From Streptomyces sp. NBC_00483 (GTDB lineage Bacteria > Actinomycetota > Actinomycetes > Streptomycetales > Streptomycetaceae): DNA of 64,000 nucleotides. The position numbers were made by a program, and so were the translations under genes. The notes beneath the pieces are model-generated. The model was not told the DNA's origin and searched no databases. It saw only the letters and a list, made by a program, of their open reading frames with translations. Position 1 is the stretch's first letter, and the number at the start of each line of letters is the position of its first letter. Where the stretch lies: contig NZ_CP107880.1 in assembly GCF_036013745.1 (NCBI RefSeq), forward strand, positions 2,232,001 through 2,296,000. Direction: 5' to 3'. Shown one piece after another: positions 6,440 through 13,726 of this stretch.

Positions 6440-9400
6440 TCAGGCTTCAGCAGGTCGCTTGTACATCCGCGTGGCCGTGATCTCGCCGTGCACCGTCTCG
6501 CCTTCGGGGTCCTGCTGCGGCAGGCCCGGGCGCAGGTGCTCCTCCACGCTGATGTACTTCAGACCGGCCCGAAGGTCCGCGTCATTGCGCATCCGGATCA
6601 CCAGGGGGAACTCGGCGAGCGCCGTCGTGTCGAACAGGCCGGTGGTGTACAGGAGTTGCACGCCGAGCGCGTCGGACACCGCACGCTGCAGTTCGAGCAG
6701 ATACGTGGCGTTGGCGCGGCCGATCGGGTTGTCGAGGAACAGCGTGCCCGCGTGGCGGTGCTTGTCGCGGCCCCGGTCGTTGGAGCGCAGCGCGGCCATC
6801 GTGCAGTACAGGGCGATGGCCGCGGTGAGCAGCTGACCGCCGGAGAAGACGTCGCCCATCTGTCCGACGGGGACGCGCTCGGCGCGCAGCACCGCGTCCG
6901 GCTTCAGGATCTCGACGGCGATGCCCTTGGGCTGGAGTGCCGCGCTGACGCCGCGCAGCAGCAGCGACATGCCGTCGCGGCGCAGGTCGGAGTTCTTCTT
7001 CACGGCCGCGCTGGTCGCCTCGTCGATGACCTCGCCGAGCCGCTCGATCAGCGTGGCCTGGTCGGGCTCCTCGAAGCGGATCCGCAGGAACTCCTGTCCG
7101 GACCACTCGCCGAGCCCCTCCGGCAGCCGCGACAGGCGCTGGGCGGAGCGGAGCGTGGCGAGCGAGGACTCCACGAGGCCGCGCAGCCGGTCCACGATCG
7201 AGTCGCGGTTGCGCTCCAGCTGGGCCAACTCGTCGGTGAGGACGCGCAGTCGGGGCGCGAACGCGTCGGCCCACTTCTGCGCGTGCTCGGGGAGCGCGGA
7301 CGCGGGCAGTTCGCGGATCTGCTGGCGGGCGGGCGTGCGCACCTGCTCGTACCGCGTCGAGTTCGCGTGCCGTACGAGGATGTCGCTCGCCTCTCGGACC
7401 GCCGCCTCGGCCGCGGACAGGTCGGCGGCGCAGCCGCGCAGCGAGCGCCGGGTCTCGGCCGCCGCCTGGCGGGCCTCCTCCAGGGAGCCGGGGTAGGGCT
7501 CCGGCTCGTCCTGCTCCTCGGCCGGGTCCGCGTGGTCCCGCAGCAGGTCGCGCAGGAGCGCCGCGGTCTCGTCGAAGCCCCCGGCCCCGTCCTCGGCGGC
7601 ACGGTGTGCGTCGAGCAGCTCGGCGTGGGCGGCGCGGTCGCTGCTCAACGCGTCGGTGCGGACGGCGAGTTCGGTGGCGGCCGTGCGCAGCAGGGACTGC
7701 GCGTGCTCGGTGTCGGACGGGACGAGGTCCTCGGGCAGCTCCGTGTGCGCGTCGCCGTCCTCGGGCGCGTGCCGCTCGGCCTCGCCGCGCAGCCGGCCGA
7801 GCTGCTCGCTCGCGGTGGAGGCGCGGGTCTCCAGCAGCTGGACGAGTTCCTCGGCGCGGGAGGCGGCGGCCTGCCGGGAGGGGCCGTCGGCGCCTTCGGA
7901 GGTTTCCAGCAGGGTGGCGGCGCGGGTGCGCACCTTGTTGCTGAGGCGGTCCAGCTCGGTGAGCGCCGCGGACTCGTCGGACTCGGCGCGGGCCTGCTCG
8001 GCCCGCAGATCGGCGCCGACGCCCACCTTCTCGTAGACCTGGGACGCGGCCCGGTACGCCTCGCGCAGTGCGGGCAGCGACGCCTGGGGCGCCTCTCCCT
8101 CCGGTACGTCGTCGGGGGCGCCGGCGATCTCGGCGCGCTCGGCGCGCAGCGTGCGGGCGGTGCGGCGGGCATCGTCCGCGGAGCGCTGGGCGGCCCGGCG
8201 GTCCTCGTCGGCCGAACGCGCGTGCTCCAGGCAGGACTGGGCGCGGGCCTCCGACTCGACGGCCTCGTCGGCGAGTTCGCGGACCTTGGCCTGCCAGCCC
8301 GCGCGCTCGCGCAGGCGGAACGCGAGTCCGGCGAGCGCGTCGGCGGCGCGGCGGGCCTTCTGCGCCGCCTCCTGTCGCTCGTCGCGCACGCGGGTCGCCT
8401 CGGCAGCGGACTCGTCGGCCTCGGCGCGCAGGGTGCGGGCCTCGGCCAGCTCGGCCTCTGACTCCTCGGCGAACGTACGGGCCTCACCTGCCGCGGCGGC
8501 GAGTTCGGCGAGGCGGCCCGTGGGGCAGCCGGAGCGCCAGGAAGTGAGGCGCGCCGCCAGCTCTCGGTCCTTGGCGAGGCGCCCGGCGCGCGCCCTGATG
8601 TCCTCGTCGCGCCGGGCCGCGCGCTCGCGCAGCGCCTGCCGCTCCTCGTCGGCGGCGTGCTCGTCGTGCATGGCCGGGTTCGGCGGGACGAGGAAGACGG
8701 CCGCGTCCCTGGAGGAGGACGCGTCCTCGGACGGGGTCGGGGCGAGCAGCGCGGCGGCGGTGCCGACGGCGACGGCGGAGCGGGGCAGCAGGGCCGCGCC
8801 GGCGAGCGCCTCCCGGGCCCGTCCATGGGCCGCCGCATCGGTGATCACGACGCCGTCGACCAGCTCGGGCCGGGCGGCGAGCACGCGCGCGTGGTCGGTC
8901 GGATCGACGGACTGGGCAAGGTAGCGCCAGCCCGGCAGGGCCGGGATGCCGTGCTCACCGAGGAACTCCACGGTGGCCAACACATCGGGGCCAGGCGGGA
9001 GCAGGCCGCCGTCGCCCAGGGCGCCCAGGATCCGGGAGTCGTCCGCGGCGGCCGTACGGAGCTCGAACAACTGCCGCTCGGCGGTGGTCACGGTGTCGTC
9101 GAGCAGCGCCTTCAGGTCGTCGGCGGCGCGGTCCAGGTCCTCGGCGGTGAGGGTGCCCTCGGAAGTTCCGAATGCCTCGCCGTCCCGGCCCCCGGACGCG
9201 TCCTGCACTTCGGCCCCGCTGTCGTCGGACCGCCCGCCCACACCGAGCAGTTCGGCCAGCCGCTCCTCCCCCGCGAGGGAAGCGGCCGCCCGCTCCTCCG
9301 CCTGGTGGGCCTGCTCCGCGGCGCTCGCGGCGTCGGCGGCGCGGGCCGCCGTCAGCTCGGCGCGCGACTCGACGGCACCGGCCTCGCGCGCGTGCTCGGA

Positions 9401-11077
9401 AGCCCGGCGGGCGGCCTCGCGCGCGGTGTCCCACGCGGCGACAGTGGTCTTCTCCGCGTCGGCCGCGGCGAGCGCGGCACGGGCCGGGTCGGCGTCGGGC
9501 GCGCTGTCGTCGATCCACCCGGCGCGCACGGCCTCGGTGGTCTCCTGCTCGACCTCGGTCAACCGCTGGCGCAGGTGCCCGAGTTCACTGCGGGCACGCT
9601 GGGCCTCGGTGGCCGCGGCCGTCGCGTCGCGGTGCGCGGTCTCGCCCGCCTCCTGGAGGACGGCGGAGCGCTCCTCCTCCACGTTCGCGTGCGTTTCGGC
9701 CTGCTCGGCGGCGCCGTGCAGCGCCCGGACGAGTTCGGACGCGGCCTTCGCGCGGGCCGCGAGCGCGGGAGCGGCGTCCCGCTCGGCCTCGCGGATGGCG
9801 ACGGCCACGCGCGCGGAGCGGTCCGCGGCGGCGCGGTGGCGCAGGACGGCCTCGGCGGCCTGCCAGGCGGAGTGGAGGCCCCGCGCGTCGGCCAGCTCGC
9901 GCTTCTGCGCGGCGGCGGCCTTCTCGGCCCCGGCGAGCGCCAAGGAGGCGTGGCGGTAGGCCAGTTCGGCCGCGATCAGGGAGCTGCGCTCGCGCGCCGA
10001 CTCCGCTTCGGCGACCGTGCCCGAGGCCGCGGTGACCTGCTGGGCCAACTCCCCGGTGCGGCCGCGCTCGACGGCGGCGCGGGCGGACAGGCGACGGGCG
10101 AGCGTGCGCGTGCGGCGCTCGGAGGCGGTGTGGATGTCCCGCGCGCGTGCCCGCGTGTCGGCGGCCTCCACGATGCGGGTGAGCAGATCGACGGAGCCAG
10201 CGGTGAATTCGCGCTCGGCCATCAGCTCGGAACGCCGTCCCAGCTTGTTCCCGAACCCGCTCACCAGGTCGGCGAGGCCGTCCGTGTCCCGCGTGTCAGT
10301 GACGGCGCGCAGCAGCAGGTCGGTGAAGTCGGAGTCCTTCTTGACGGCGAAGAGGCCCGCGGCCTCGCCCTCGTCCGCGTTCATCTCCCGCTGGTAGCGG
10401 AAGAGTTCGGGGTCGAGGCCCAGGTCACCGAGGTGCTCGTTCCACCGGTCGTGGATCTCCTCCCAGTGCACCTCCAGGTGCGGGTACGCCTTGCCCGCCT
10501 CCGTCAGCGCGTCCCGGAAGCCCTTCATGGTGCGGCGCCGCCCCTGCGCGCCCGAGGCGCCCTCGGCGGCGGGACGTACGGCGCTGGCCTCGGCGACCGG
10601 CAGCGAGTCGAGGCTCAGACCGGGGCCCGGCCGGAACGAGTACCAGGCCTCGGCGAACTTCCGCGGGTCGTTGGAGACCTGCCGCCCCCGCCACTCGCTG
10701 ACCTTGCCGACGACGACGCACTCGCCGGTGAGCGTGTGCTGCCACTCCAGGGCGACGTGTCCGCAGTCGTCGGCGAGGAGGAACTTGCGCAGCACACCGG
10801 AGCTGGCGCCGCCCAGCGTGTTCCGGTGGCCGGGCAGCATGACCGAGAAGATCAGCTTGAGCAGGACCGACTTGCCGCCGCCGTTCTCCAGGAAGAGCAC
10901 ACCGGCCGGCGCGGGGCGGCGCGGCGGACCGACGGGCTCGTCCTCGAAGAACTCCGCCTGGGTGGGTGCGGGGTCGGGCACGGGCTCGCCAACGCCCCGC
11001 AGGTCAAGCACGGTGTCGGCGTAGCGTGCACCGGCGGGCCCGATGGAGTAGAGGCGAATCCGGGACAGCTCGTACAT
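6440..11077 (-). CDS. MukB/MksB/JetC-like SMC-family ATPase (1545 aa)
   Basis: Very large ATPase with split ABC-type head and a long coiled coil, the motor subunit of a non-canonical SMC complex. Residues 60-72 hold the Walker A motif (FLENGGGKSVLL, K69). About residues 290-1370 are Ala/Glu/Arg-rich heptad-like sequence typical of antiparallel coiled coil. The C-terminal head carries the signature FSGGQ (1411-1415) and Walker B GTLFLDN (1444-1450, D1449), in which Asn follows the Asp where canonical SMCs have Glu. It is the last gene after kleisin, microORF and KITE genes, 36 bp after the KITE stop, in the E. coli mukF-mukE-mukB order. Family knowledge suggests DNA loop extrusion in chromosome organisation or plasmid exclusion. 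No JetD/MksG-like nuclease is seen beside it. Exact subfamily is not assigned. Confidence 0.85.
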   Translation of the reverse strand: MYELSRIRLYSIGPAGARYADTVLDLRGVGEPVPDPAPTQAEFFEDEPVGPPRRPAPAGVLFLENGGGKSVLLKLIFSVMLPGHRNTLGGASSGVLRKFLLADDCGHVALEWQHTLTGECVVVGKVSEWRGRQVSNDPRKFAEAWYSFRPGPGLSLDSLPVAEASAVRPAAEGASGAQGRRRTMKGFRDALTEAGKAYPHLEVHWEEIHDRWNEHLGDLGLDPELFRYQREMNADEGEAAGLFAVKKDSDFTDLLLRAVTDTRDTDGLADLVSGFGNKLGRRSELMAEREFTAGSVDLLTRIVEAADTRARARDIHTASERRTRTLARRLSARAAVERGRTGELAQQVTAASGTVAEAESARERSSLIAAELAYRHASLALAGAEKAAAAQKRELADARGLHSAWQAAEAVLRHRAAADRSARVAVAIREAERDAAPALAARAKAASELVRALHGAAEQAETHANVEEERSAVLQEAGETAHRDATAAATEAQRARSELGHLRQRLTEVEQETTEAVRAGWIDDSAPDADPARAALAAADAEKTTVAAWDTAREAARRASEHAREAGAVESRAELTAARAADAASAAEQAHQAEERAAASLAGEERLAELLGVGGRSDDSGAEVQDASGGRDGEAFGTSEGTLTAEDLDRAADDLKALLDDTVTTAERQLFELRTAAADDSRILGALGDGGLLPPGPDVLATVEFLGEHGIPALPGWRYLAQSVDPTDHARVLAARPELVDGVVITDAAAHGRAREALAGAALLPRSAVAVGTAAALLAPTPSEDASSSRDAAVFLVPPNPAMHDEHAADEERQALRERAARRDEDIRARAGRLAKDRELAARLTSWRSGCPTGRLAELAAAAGEARTFAEESEAELAEARTLRAEADESAAEATRVRDERQEAAQKARRAADALAGLAFRLRERAGWQAKVRELADEAVESEARAQSCLEHARSADEDRRAAQRSADDARRTARTLRAERAEIAGAPDDVPEGEAPQASLPALREAYRAASQVYEKVGVGADLRAEQARAESDESAALTELDRLSNKVRTRAATLLETSEGADGPSRQAAASRAEELVQLLETRASTASEQLGRLRGEAERHAPEDGDAHTELPEDLVPSDTEHAQSLLRTAATELAVRTDALSSDRAAHAELLDAHRAAEDGAGGFDETAALLRDLLRDHADPAEEQDEPEPYPGSLEEARQAAAETRRSLRGCAADLSAAEAAVREASDILVRHANSTRYEQVRTPARQQIRELPASALPEHAQKWADAFAPRLRVLTDELAQLERNRDSIVDRLRGLVESSLATLRSAQRLSRLPEGLGEWSGQEFLRIRFEEPDQATLIERLGEVIDEATSAAVKKNSDLRRDGMSLLLRGVSAALQPKGIAVEILKPDAVLRAERVPVGQMGDVFSGGQLLTAAIALYCTMAALRSNDRGRDKHRHAGTLFLDNPIGRANATYLLELQRAVSDALGVQLLYTTGLFDTTALAEFPLVIRMRNDADLRAGLKYISVEEHLRPGLPQQDPEGETVHGEITATRMYKRPAEA

Positions 11078-11113: not shown

Positions 11114-12007
11114 TCAGGAGTGGAACGGCAGGCCCGCGTCGGCGGCGAGCCCGGTCGCGTCCTCGTCCATCGGCGGCACCAGGCTCGCGGACCCGTCGGT
11201 GACGGGAACGACGCCCAGCTCGAGAAGTTCGGCCATGGCGGCCGTGCCGGCCATGTCGCGGACCTGGAGCTGGTAGCGGGCGGTGGTGCGGTACGTGCCG
11301 CCCGAGTCGTCGCCGGTTCTCTGCAGGAAGCCGGAGTCGGTGAGGAAGGCGACGGCCTTGCCGACGATGCCGGTGGTCGAACTGGCGAGGCGGCGCGTGT
11401 CCTTGGTGGCGCCCGTGGAGCTGCGCCGCGCCCAGATCCGCCAGGCGGCTTCGAGCCCGGGGGCCTCGGTCGCCGGGTCGGTGTTCTCGCCGGTCTCCTC
11501 GGCCCGCTCCTCCAGCTTGCGGCAGGCCTGCCGGACGAAGGCGTCCACGCCGTTGACACTCACGCGGCCGATGTAGCCGTCGTCGGCGAGGTCCTCGGGG
11601 CGCGGGAAGGCGAGCGCGGCGACCGCGAGATGGGCGAGGCCGTGCAGGAAGCGGTCGGTGGAGTCCGCGGTCGTCCGGCGCGCGTAGTCGCCCATGCGAA
11701 CCGCGAACACGGAGTCCTCGGCGGCGGTCACGGCCATCCCCGCGCGCGGGGACACCTCCAGGACGACGAGGCCGAGCCCGGTGGCCACGGCGTCGGCGAG
11801 CCGGGCGAAGGGCGGGTCCTCGCGATAGCGGCGCAGCAGCTCCCCGTACTCCTGATCACGGGAGGGCTGGAGCTTCGGCTGGAGGCCGAAGGAGACCAGA
11901 CGCGCCGCGTCGGCGGCGTCGGCCGGGGTGACGGGCGCCTGGGCCCTGGCCGAGCCCGAAGCGTCGGGCTCGCCCCATTCGGCGTGCTCTTCGGCGTACT
12001 CGGTCAC
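11114..12007 (-). CDS. KITE/MukE-like winged-helix subunit of the SMC complex (297 aa)
   Basis: Predicted middle subunit bridging kleisin and SMC heads. The assignment rests on its place between kleisin and SMC genes, its size and its winged-helix-like character: residues 70-130 (VATGLGLVVLEVSPRAG, then FLHGLAHLAVAALAFPRPED) and a second region with KAVAFLTDSGFLQRTGDD followed by YRTTARYQLQVRDMAG. GTG at 12007 is chosen because AAGGAG lies 8 bases upstream; upstream in-frame sequence belongs to the microORF and kleisin regions in other frames. The GTG overlaps the TGA of the 34-codon ORF (GTGA), so translation is probably coupled. Direct homology to MukE is inferred, not shown. Confidence 0.75.
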   Translation of the reverse strand: MTEYAEEHAEWGEPDASGSARAQAPVTPADAADAARLVSFGLQPKLQPSRDQEYGELLRRYREDPPFARLADAVATGLGLVVLEVSPRAGMAVTAAEDSVFAVRMGDYARRTTADSTDRFLHGLAHLAVAALAFPRPEDLADDGYIGRVSVNGVDAFVRQACRKLEERAEETGENTDPATEAPGLEAAWRIWARRSSTGATKDTRRLASSTTGIVGKAVAFLTDSGFLQRTGDDSGGTYRTTARYQLQVRDMAGTAAMAELLELGVVPVTDGSASLVPPMDEDATGLAADAGLPFHS

Positions 12008-12108
12008 GGGTGGTGCTCCTTCATGGGTGCTGCGTAGAAGTTCATGCGCGCTACGTGGTTCACGCGGACTACGTCGTTCATGCGCGCTACGTAGAGGTGG
12101 GTCGCCAT
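12004..12108 (-). CDS. Putative 34-aa microprotein between kleisin and KITE genes
   Basis: Short ORF that exactly fills the gap between the two genes. Its ATG (12108) shares one base with the kleisin TGA (TGATG), it has GGAGG seven bases upstream inside the kleisin 3' end, and its TGA overlaps the KITE GTG (GTGA). It encodes 34 residues starting MATHLYVARMND and ending APMKEHHP, with a three-fold six-residue repeat (VARMND, VVRVNH, VARMNF) from 18-bp DNA repeats. Third codon positions are mostly G or C. It may be a real small subunit, or a leader whose translation delivers ribosomes to the KITE start. I know of no described homologue. Confidence 0.55.
   Translation of the reverse strand: MATHLYVARMNDVVRVNHVARMNFYAAPMKEHHP
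12027..12094 (-). repeat. Three to four 18-bp direct repeats inside the microORF
   Basis: On the minus strand the unit CGTAGCGCGCATGAACNN occurs three times in tandem, plus a degenerate fourth ending in CCCATGAAGG, whose AAGGAG is the KITE ribosome site. The unit length is a multiple of three and keeps the small reading frame open. Confidence 0.85.
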
Positions 12109-13634
12109 CACGCGGCCTCCGTCCGGCCGGCGGCCATCCCGACCGCGTCGAGCAGGGCCATTCCCACGATGAGGTCGGCGCCGCCGAACTCCGGGTCGTC
12201 GAGCTCGGTGCCGTCGTCCACGGCGAACAGCAGCTTCTCCTCGCCCTGGCGGTAGGCCGTGCCGACCGGCGGGCTCGCGGCGTGGACCGCCAACAGGGCC
12301 ACCAAGTACGGCAGTTCGGCATCGCGCTTGCGGGCGTCGGCGAGCAGCCCGGACAGCCGGCGCGGCGCGTCCGACGGCAGGTCGAGCAGCTCCATGGCGC
12401 CCGCGAGCTGCTCCTCGCTGAACCGGCTGTCGTCCGGCGTGGCGATGAGGTCCGGCTCGGGCATCTCCGCGCCGAGGTGCTCACGCTCCATGGGCGGCGT
12501 GAGCAGTATGTCGACCAGGTCGCCGACGCGTACGGACACGGGCGTACGAAGCCCGGTGCCGCGCGCGAAGAACGCGTCGGTGGCCTTCTTCGCGCTCTCC
12601 ACCGGCAGCGGCAGCAGCGGCGCGAGGAGCTGCCCGTACAGATCGAGGCCCACGCGCGCGGAGGGCGCCGTGAAGGCCTGCCGGTCCTGCTCGGCGCGGA
12701 ACAGCGGGCCGGCCTCCAGGAGGCGCGACTGCAGCTGCGTATGACGGCGGATGCAGTCCTTGACGATGTCGACGAGCTCGGCGGCGCGGCGCTTCTGCTC
12801 CGGCTCCTCCGACTCGTCACGGGCCTTGCGGATGTTCGTCAGGATCGCGTTCTCGTGCCGGTAGCGGTCCGCGACGTGGTCGAGCGCCTCGGCGATCATG
12901 TCGGGCACGGCCTGCAGCCAGTCGACGGCGCGCACATTGCGGCGCGTCGCGTCCAGCGCCTTGCGGAGCGTCTCCGAGTACTGCACGGTCCGGTACCTGG
13001 CCTGCTCGGCGGCGAGCTGCGCGTCCGCGAGCCGGCCGCGGCTGATCAGCACCTCCAGCTTGACCTCGGCGGCGATCTGCGCGCTGGTGACGTCCGTGTC
13101 GAGGGCGCCGACCAGGACGTTCACCGCCTCGTCCGTCGTGCGCAGGTAGACGCTGCCCCCGTAGCCGGGGACCTCCTCGATCAGCTTGAAGTCGTAGTCA
13201 CGCCGTACGTAGGAGCCGTCCTGCGCGAACGTGCCGTACACGGCGCGGAAGCCGCGGTCCACGCTGCCGACGTTGATCAGGTTCTCCAGGACCCAGCGGG
13301 CCACCCGCTCGTGCTCGGCGGAAGGCCGCTGCGGGGCCTGTGCCGCGATGCGGGGAACGAGCCTGGCCACTATCTGCTCGTGGTCGGCGCCCGTGTCGAA
13401 GTCCATGTTCAGTGTGACGAGGTCGATGGCGGACAGCGCCACCTCCGCCATCCCGTACGTCGAGTACTCGCCCGCGAGATTGGCCTTGCGCACGTCCAGA
13501 TCGTGCAGCGGCGCGGTGCACGCGAGCGCGCGAAGGCGGCGCGCGAGCCCTTCGTCGGCGGCCGGGCCCGGTGCGGGGCGCGGCCCCGCGCTGAGCTGGG
13601 GCGGAACGGATTCCGTGCTGGCAGGCGAAGTCAC
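12108..13634 (-). CDS. MukF/MksF/JetA-like kleisin subunit (508 aa)
   Basis: Predicted kleisin that closes the SMC-like ring. It is helical throughout, with an N-terminal winged-helix-like part (ALSAIDLVTLNMDF, then ERVARWVLENLINVGSVDRG), a mid helical bundle (RYRTVQYSETLRKALDATRR) and a long charged helix (NAILTNIRKARDESEEPEQK), the layout of MukF/MksF. Size and first position in the operon fit. I chose the GTG at 13634; an in-frame TTG lies 30 bases upstream at 13664, and neither has a strong ribosome site. The 92-bp gap from the GntR gene probably contains the operon promoter. Fold assignment is by pattern and context, not by search. Confidence 0.72.
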   Translation of the reverse strand: MTSPASTESVPPQLSAGPRPAPGPAADEGLARRLRALACTAPLHDLDVRKANLAGEYSTYGMAEVALSAIDLVTLNMDFDTGADHEQIVARLVPRIAAQAPQRPSAEHERVARWVLENLINVGSVDRGFRAVYGTFAQDGSYVRRDYDFKLIEEVPGYGGSVYLRTTDEAVNVLVGALDTDVTSAQIAAEVKLEVLISRGRLADAQLAAEQARYRTVQYSETLRKALDATRRNVRAVDWLQAVPDMIAEALDHVADRYRHENAILTNIRKARDESEEPEQKRRAAELVDIVKDCIRRHTQLQSRLLEAGPLFRAEQDRQAFTAPSARVGLDLYGQLLAPLLPLPVESAKKATDAFFARGTGLRTPVSVRVGDLVDILLTPPMEREHLGAEMPEPDLIATPDDSRFSEEQLAGAMELLDLPSDAPRRLSGLLADARKRDAELPYLVALLAVHAASPPVGTAYRQGEEKLLFAVDDGTELDDPEFGGADLIVGMALLDAVGMAAGRTEAA

Positions 13635-13726
13635 GGAGCACAGGGTATGCGCTGGGTCTGACAACGGTCGAAACGGCGCAGATGCGACGGCTTTCGGGCC
13701 TGCCCGCGACGGGCCGCGAAAGGCGG

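Follow-up and report, generated by a model that had tools for sequence, protein, structure and literature searches.

The window analyzed here is a stretch of 64,000 nucleotides from Streptomyces sp. NBC_00483 (contig NZ_CP107880.1, positions 2,232,001 to 2,296,000). On its minus strand it carries the genes jetA, jetB, and jetC, and a 34-codon ORF is located directly 3′ of jetA on the same strand (Table 1). We refer to this ORF as the relay ORF. A first-pass annotation made from the letters of the window had described an ORF, strand unstated, that is joined to the upstream gene by TGATG, is preceded by GGAGG seven bases before its ATG, and ends on the downstream gene at GTGA. All of these elements are confirmed from the sequence, as is the six-residue repeat that was attributed to 18-bp DNA repeats, which is present as three units. 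The jetA end in the window reads GTGATG, and therefore two in-frame relay starts (GTG and ATG) overlap the stop. Use of the GTG instead of the ATG lengthens the ORF by one codon. Both hops in the window, from jetA to the relay ORF and from the relay ORF to jetB, are stop/start overlaps.

Table 1. Features of the jetA–jetB–jetC locus, numbered from the first nucleotide of the window.
Feature	Position	Strand	Remarks
jetA	12108..13664	minus	kleisin-like; PADLOC JetA3; 5′ end putative
GGAGG, Shine–Dalgarno-like, inside jetA end	12116..12120	minus	7 nt 5′ of relay ATG
jetA stop TGA	12108..12110	minus	overlapped by GTG 12111-12109 and ATG 12108-12106
relay ORF	12004..12108	minus	ATG start, 34 codons plus TGA; frame kept genus-wide
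18-bp repeat units, three (YVARMN/DVVRVN/HVARMN)	12040..12093	minus	TRF period 18, 2.9 copies (L001)
Diverged 21-bp unit after the 18-bp repeats	12019..12039	minus	
AAGGAG, Shine–Dalgarno site of jetB, within relay ORF	12016..12021	minus	
GTGA, -4 overlap	12004..12007	minus	relay TGA 12006-12004 / jetB GTG 12007-12005
jetB	11114..12007	minus	KITE-like by operon position
jetC	6440..11077	minus	SMC ATPase; PADLOC JetC3, DUF3584; jetB–jetC spacer used as control

The flanking genes had been labeled kleisin and KITE. The first label is upheld by a PADLOC match of the JetA3 profile to jetA (E 1.6e-186), whereas the putative KITE assignment of jetB comes from its place in the operon, since jetB has no match in Pfam, PADLOC, NCBIfam, or PDB sequence searches. 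The JetC3 profile matches jetC (E 0), and neither jetA nor jetC has a match in Pfam, NCBIfam, or PDB. JetA3 and JetC3, two profiles of Wadjet type III, both match at the window locus. The JetD nuclease domain (JetD_C, PF09983) has no match anywhere in this genome; among 14 control genomes it is matched in C. glutamicum only, and it is present in 13 of 101 Streptomyces genomes. Because this domain is absent from the genome and sparse in the genus, the window locus is not a complete Wadjet. It resembles Wadjet type III (JetABCD) and MksBEFG in its strong JetA3 and JetC3 profile matches and differs from them in the lack of a JetD_C match. JetABC without JetD appears to be near-universal in Streptomyces, given that jetB was found in 378 of the 392 genomes of the genus searched. 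The Streptomyces JetABC may serve as a housekeeping SMC complex rather than in plasmid defence.

It had also been argued that such a precise fit is unlikely to arise by chance. This argument fails for a single sequence. When 20,000 random-phase spacers were generated by shuffling, presupposing a start codon at the jetA stop and a GTGA at jetB, 14.45% bridged the two genes exactly. The window ORF alone is therefore weak evidence.

Length and reading frame of the jetA–jetB spacer

Junctions for comparison were collected through a JetA scan of genome contigs, which yielded 80 Streptomyces loci among the matches listed (576 candidates encode a relative), and through genus and class searches with JetB followed by retrieval of the regions. 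In the class search, jetB was found in 62 of 393 genomes, 42 of which belong to the genus of the window. Sampled genomes were assigned to Streptomyces by inference. Removal of 22 duplicates left 235 junctions. Of these, 212 are of the Streptomyces type (jetB identity of at least 75%), including that of the window itself (L001), and the other 23 comprise 19 junctions from other families and four second copies in the genus. Three entries were left out: a match in unrelated DNA (L002), a contig that ends before jetB (L070), and a stretch that holds no jetA (L226). A single junction, the jetB–jetC spacer, served as the control in 79 loci.

Across the 212 Streptomyces-type junctions, the spacer between jetA and jetB ranges from 15 to 700 nt. 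The first 79 loci have 39 different spacer lengths and no common sequence. The length is 1 mod 3 in 76 of these 79 loci, and the relay frame has one stop in 2519 codons, as compared with 27 stops in 2518 codons and 40 in 2595 for the other two sense frames. An antisense gene was considered as the source of the frame constraint and was rejected, because all three antisense frames carry stops (27, 30, and 15). The control spacers are distributed 24, 33, and 22 over phases 0, 1, and 2, with stops in every frame.

We define an exact relay as an ORF whose start overlaps the jetA stop and whose stop overlaps the jetB start by 4. This arrangement was scored in the 208 junctions in which the jetB start is over 20 nt beyond the jetA stop (which excludes L138, L181, L243, and L251), and it is present in 197 of them versus none of the 79 jetB–jetC controls. 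In 100 rounds of shuffling with random phase, there were on average 52 exact relays and never more than 68. When spacer length is kept, shuffled spacers bridge 152 of the 208 junctions on average (maximum 163), indicating that most of the signal resides in phase. A large part of the open frame is accounted for by phase together with high G+C content.

These values raise the question of whether chance is sufficient, that is, whether spacers kept open by their G+C content and a shared length inherited from an ancestor explain the pattern. Both the 14% success for the window alone and the performance of same-length shuffles favor this explanation. From the flanking-gene tree of the 212 loci, we took 106 disjoint phylogenetic pairs. 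The two members differ in spacer length in 85 pairs, and in 74 of these the difference is a multiple of three (p 1.3e-24). For the 79 loci with jetC, length differences are in phase in 31 of 34 pairs at the jetA–jetB junction versus 8 of 33 at the jetB–jetC junction. The diversity of lengths, the many independent in-phase changes, and the control spacers, with few in-phase pairs and no exact relay, leave chance with a negligible probability.

Some of the length variation is repetitive. TRF detects a tandem repeat in 57 of the 159 spacers longer than 40 nt, and the repeat periods fall 34, 17, and 6 over phases 0, 1, and 2. This distribution is no more than suggestive of tandem-repeat expansion by multiples of three as a source of in-phase lengths. 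A similar block (GTGGCTGGTCGCGC ... CCCCGCGCCCCT ... GGGGCGC) occurs in many spacers (L006, L008, L011, L017, L029, L042, and others). To the eye, it resembles a hairpin-bearing intergenic repeat dispersed in Streptomyces, and the relay frame reads through it.

Start and stop codons at the two overlaps

A start codon overlaps the jetA stop in 211 of the 212 loci, and the relay start lies at -1 or +2 of this stop in 208 of 209. A Shine–Dalgarno-like word lies within the final 16 nt of jetA at 196 of 212 loci; jetB is preceded by AAGGAG at 143 of the 212 and by another GGAG word at 67. Among the 209 loci with a jetB start downstream, the distance from relay stop to jetB start is -4 in 198 and -8 in six, with single loci at -7 (L142) and +5 (L153). 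One of the 198 (L009) has a TAA jetA stop without an overlapping start, and its relay ATG occurs 3 nt later.

The jetA stop is part of NTGA (N = A, G, or T) in 199 of the 212 loci, and this context is impossible in the remaining 13, which have C-TGA (seven), TAG (three), or TAA (three). In 12 of these 13 loci, TG directly follows the stop to create TGATG, TAGTG, or TAATG, versus 34 of the 199 others (p 3e-8). Codon choice at the jetA end is also distinctive. When the last codon specifies alanine it is GCA or GCG in 177 cases, GCC in six, and GCT in three, as compared with 2908 GCA or GCG and 4987 GCC codons in the body of jetA. The jetB gene, which has no such overlap at its end, terminates with C-TGA in 193 of 212 loci.

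These start-codon data bear on two alternative explanations. The first is that a -1 ribosomal frameshift at the jetA end yields JetA with a relay-encoded tail. The relay frame is indeed that of jetA minus one, and in L181 and L293 jetA runs on into the relay ORF through a one-base indel (or a sequencing error). However, a frameshift product requires no start codon, yet a lost start is compensated in 12 of 13 loci and the last jetA codon is biased toward making one. We consider this explanation highly improbable. In L293 (genome G310), the frameshift, whether a mutation or a sequencing error, is located at jetA residue 486/487, and the resulting jetA–relay fusion still ends on the jetB start.

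The second alternative is that the open spacer maintains ribosome cover against Rho-type premature termination (polarity) and does not deliver ribosomes to jetB. Spacers of 100–700 nt are readable throughout, and some contain what look by eye like dispersed hairpin-forming repeats, as might be expected if cover were important. In contrast, short spacers of 28–40 nt follow the same phase (47 of 48 loci, 37 of which share a length of 31), and no frame is retained in the jetB–jetC spacers, which reach 274 nt. Protection from polarity also needs neither exact start/stop overlaps nor the compensation by TGATG or TAGTG. It accounts for long spacers, but not for short ones or for the exact overlaps, and we regard it as very improbable.

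A candidate translational relay and its origin

The explanation we favor, to which we assign a probability of about 0.8, is that the ORF is a translational relay that carries ribosomes from jetA to jetB and is not a useful small protein. A ribosome that finishes jetA would restart at the start codon that shares nucleotides with the jetA stop (NTGA or TGATG/TAATG/TAGTG), read the entire spacer, and end at the TGA that overlaps the jetB start, where it would restart on jetB. Selection would act on the overlaps, on the openness of the frame, and on a spacer length of 1 mod 3, but not on the amino acids. The presumed benefit is that two subunits of the same complex are made in matching amounts. 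That relay translation and reinitiation take place is inferred from these sequence patterns. The first-pass proposal that the ORF is coupled to both neighbors fits well with the retention of its frame and overlaps across the genus, unlike the jetB–jetC spacer. Because jetB has its own Shine–Dalgarno sequence, independent initiation at jetB is possible. The +5 gap of L153, the -7 spacing of L142, and the missing start overlap of L009 also count against the relay. Sequestration of the ribosome binding site was rejected as a coupling switch: the mean unpaired probability of the region from Shine–Dalgarno sequence to start is 0.483 for jetB and 0.519 for jetC, so jetB is not clearly more closed than jetC.

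Both overlaps are of a type for which termination–reinitiation has been described. The available part of one report states that spacings of ∼20–38 nt nearly abolish reinitiation, that the commonest spacings are -4, -1, and -8, and that there is an enrichment of overlaps between genes whose products join in heteromeric complexes (Huber et al. 2023, PMC10666635). This distance dependence and enrichment are consistent with termination–reinitiation at both relay overlaps. The overlap classes, the association with complex subunits, and the steep loss with distance are alike in the two cases; the pairs treated in that part of the report are directly adjacent genes, whereas a bridging ORF is present here.

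The relay arrangement probably arose within Streptomyces. A start in the jetB frame overlaps the jetA stop in 22 of the 23 outgroup and paralogue junctions (at -4 in 21 and at -4 or -7 in L227), and in the remaining one (L230) the jetB start is at +2. These 23 junctions group together in a protein tree. Given this distribution and grouping, a direct overlap is likely to be ancestral, and the ancestor probably had jetA and jetB overlapping by -4. The earliest Streptomyces branch (six loci) is mixed in arrangement, with weak internal support of 0.62. A spacer would subsequently have opened between the two genes in Streptomyces, where mostly relay-readable insertions would have survived.

The exceptional junctions remain within coupling distance by other means, among them the -8, -7, and +5 spacings given above. 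L048 and L217 have two chained mini-ORFs (ATGA...ATGA...GTGA), the first of which ends on the start of the second. L192 has undergone a change in length that places the small ORF in one continuous frame with jetB, as a fusion. A direct jetA–jetB overlap is found in L138, L181, and L251; that of L181 is due to a one-base frameshift near the jetA end, which is either a mutation or a sequencing error. The second link of L048 came from a duplicated jetA end that contains the overlapping start.

The principle of coupling through a short ORF is already known. In the available text of Shell et al. (2015, PMC4633059), mycobacterial small ORFs are described that end in a TGA overlapping the RTG start of the downstream gene, and that sometimes keep their placement and linkage but not their peptide sequence. 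The same combination of conserved linkage and unconserved sequence is seen for the Streptomyces relay. The mycobacterial ORFs in that text stand first on leaderless transcripts and have one coupled neighbor, whereas the Streptomyces ORF follows jetA directly on the same strand and is therefore probably internal to an operon and not the first ORF of a leaderless transcript, is putatively coupled on both sides, and has been quantified over 212 junctions. The accessible part of a review (PMC12548453) raises the general notion that a short ORF can deliver ribosomes, and also describes MIRU (Supply et al. 1997), which when inserted between genes carries an ORF coupled at -4, so that the downstream gene is little harmed. 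MIRU as presented there is one repeat family, but the relay spacers are many unrelated sequences that have only frame and overlaps in common. Searches of titles and abstract starts in the open-licence literature found no description of a bridging or relay ORF at such a junction, and no paper on Wadjet or MksB in Streptomyces that describes the jetA–jetB junction. Within the literature so covered, a candidate relay of this kind, which lies inside an operon, overlaps both neighbors, and persists throughout a genus while its sequence varies, is new.

Drift of the peptide and a clade with a longer product

The relay ORF had been proposed to encode an overlooked small subunit of the SMC complex, and a comparison of Streptomyces junctions was suggested to distinguish conservation of the peptide from conservation of the overlaps alone. 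The overlaps are kept, whereas the peptide drifts. We used 32 pairs of alignable relays of equal length with a tree distance of ≤0.2 and ≤35% difference. Substitution rates at codon positions 1, 2, and 3 are 0.135, 0.150, and 0.139, whereas the jetA tail in the same pairs gives 0.052, 0.036, and 0.185. Single-base codon differences in the relays comprise 33 synonymous and 93 nonsynonymous changes. Since the rates are flat, the amino acids appear to be free to change. In 119 relays with spacers of at least 60 nt, the G+C content by codon position is 0.789, 0.708, and 0.804, which is at most a weak coding-like skew. Among the 199 phase-1 loci, relay length varies from 9 to 235 codons, and peptide sequences are unrelated between species.

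A conserved small subunit of the JetABC complex would be in keeping with the position of the ORF between two subunit genes, with its conserved frame, and with one clade in which the relay is long and its C-terminus shows signs of selection (see below). For the genus as a whole, this interpretation is contradicted by the flat codon-position rates, by the range of lengths and unrelated sequences, and by the absence of the ORF in direct-overlap loci or its fusion to jetB in L192. A genus-wide subunit is ruled out by the codon-position test, and we regard the subunit interpretation as very improbable, with the clade as an apparent partial exception. What is conserved, on the evidence of the compared junctions, is the frame, the phase, the overlaps, and the start-codon compensation, and not the peptide.

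This case separates conservation of translation from conservation of a peptide, which are usually confused for small ORFs. A frame-only test, comprising length modulo three, start/stop compensation, and an adjacent spacer as control, can detect functional ORFs that are rejected by dN/dS and sequence-conservation screens. Moreover, direct overlap, one relay, two chained relays, and fusion form a natural series with which the stretch limit of coupling can be probed. An ORF kept only for being translated could also give rise to a gene.

The exceptional clade includes ten loci with a relay protein of 130–276 amino acids: L123, L128, L206, and L209, and L264, L265, L267, L269, L277, and L292 from a motif search. 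The protein is rich in proline and alanine, and its C-terminus is conserved around VRA[VI]RL and V.PV.LPLPR. Together with L242, which has a short spacer of 157 nt, the ten loci form one clade of 11 in the flanking-gene tree (support 0.956). L181, with its frameshifted jetA, is placed elsewhere in this tree despite similar tail motifs. For the C-terminal columns of nine sequences (L292 is not among them), codon-position rates are 0.357, 0.323, and 0.452, and single-base codon differences are 451 synonymous and 335 nonsynonymous, counted over pairs that are not independent. The overlaps with jetA and jetB are retained in all five motif-search loci inspected for them. Six database relatives of 130–228 amino acids are annotated as hypothetical proteins.

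In this clade, the relay looks like it has been recruited into a protein. De novo birth of this protein and its joining of the complex are guesses. Pervasive translation of small ORFs is described as raw material for new proteins in the available part of one article (PMC9094748). It is possible, although we hold this view tentatively and at somewhat less than even odds, that an obligately translated, sequence-free relay acts as a nursery for new proteins and that the clade protein is a de novo fourth partner of JetABC.

The clade motif was also used for a scan of the genus at E values up to 1, in which 386 of 392 genomes were matched, mostly by chance. Eight of 30 loci hold this jetB (L261–L265, L267, L269, and L277); L261 and L262 are repeats of L123 and L206, and L263 is without jetA in the stretch. 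Another locus (L291, genome G041) encodes jetB and the terminal part of the long relay protein, and no jetA was found in the ∼3 kb read upstream.
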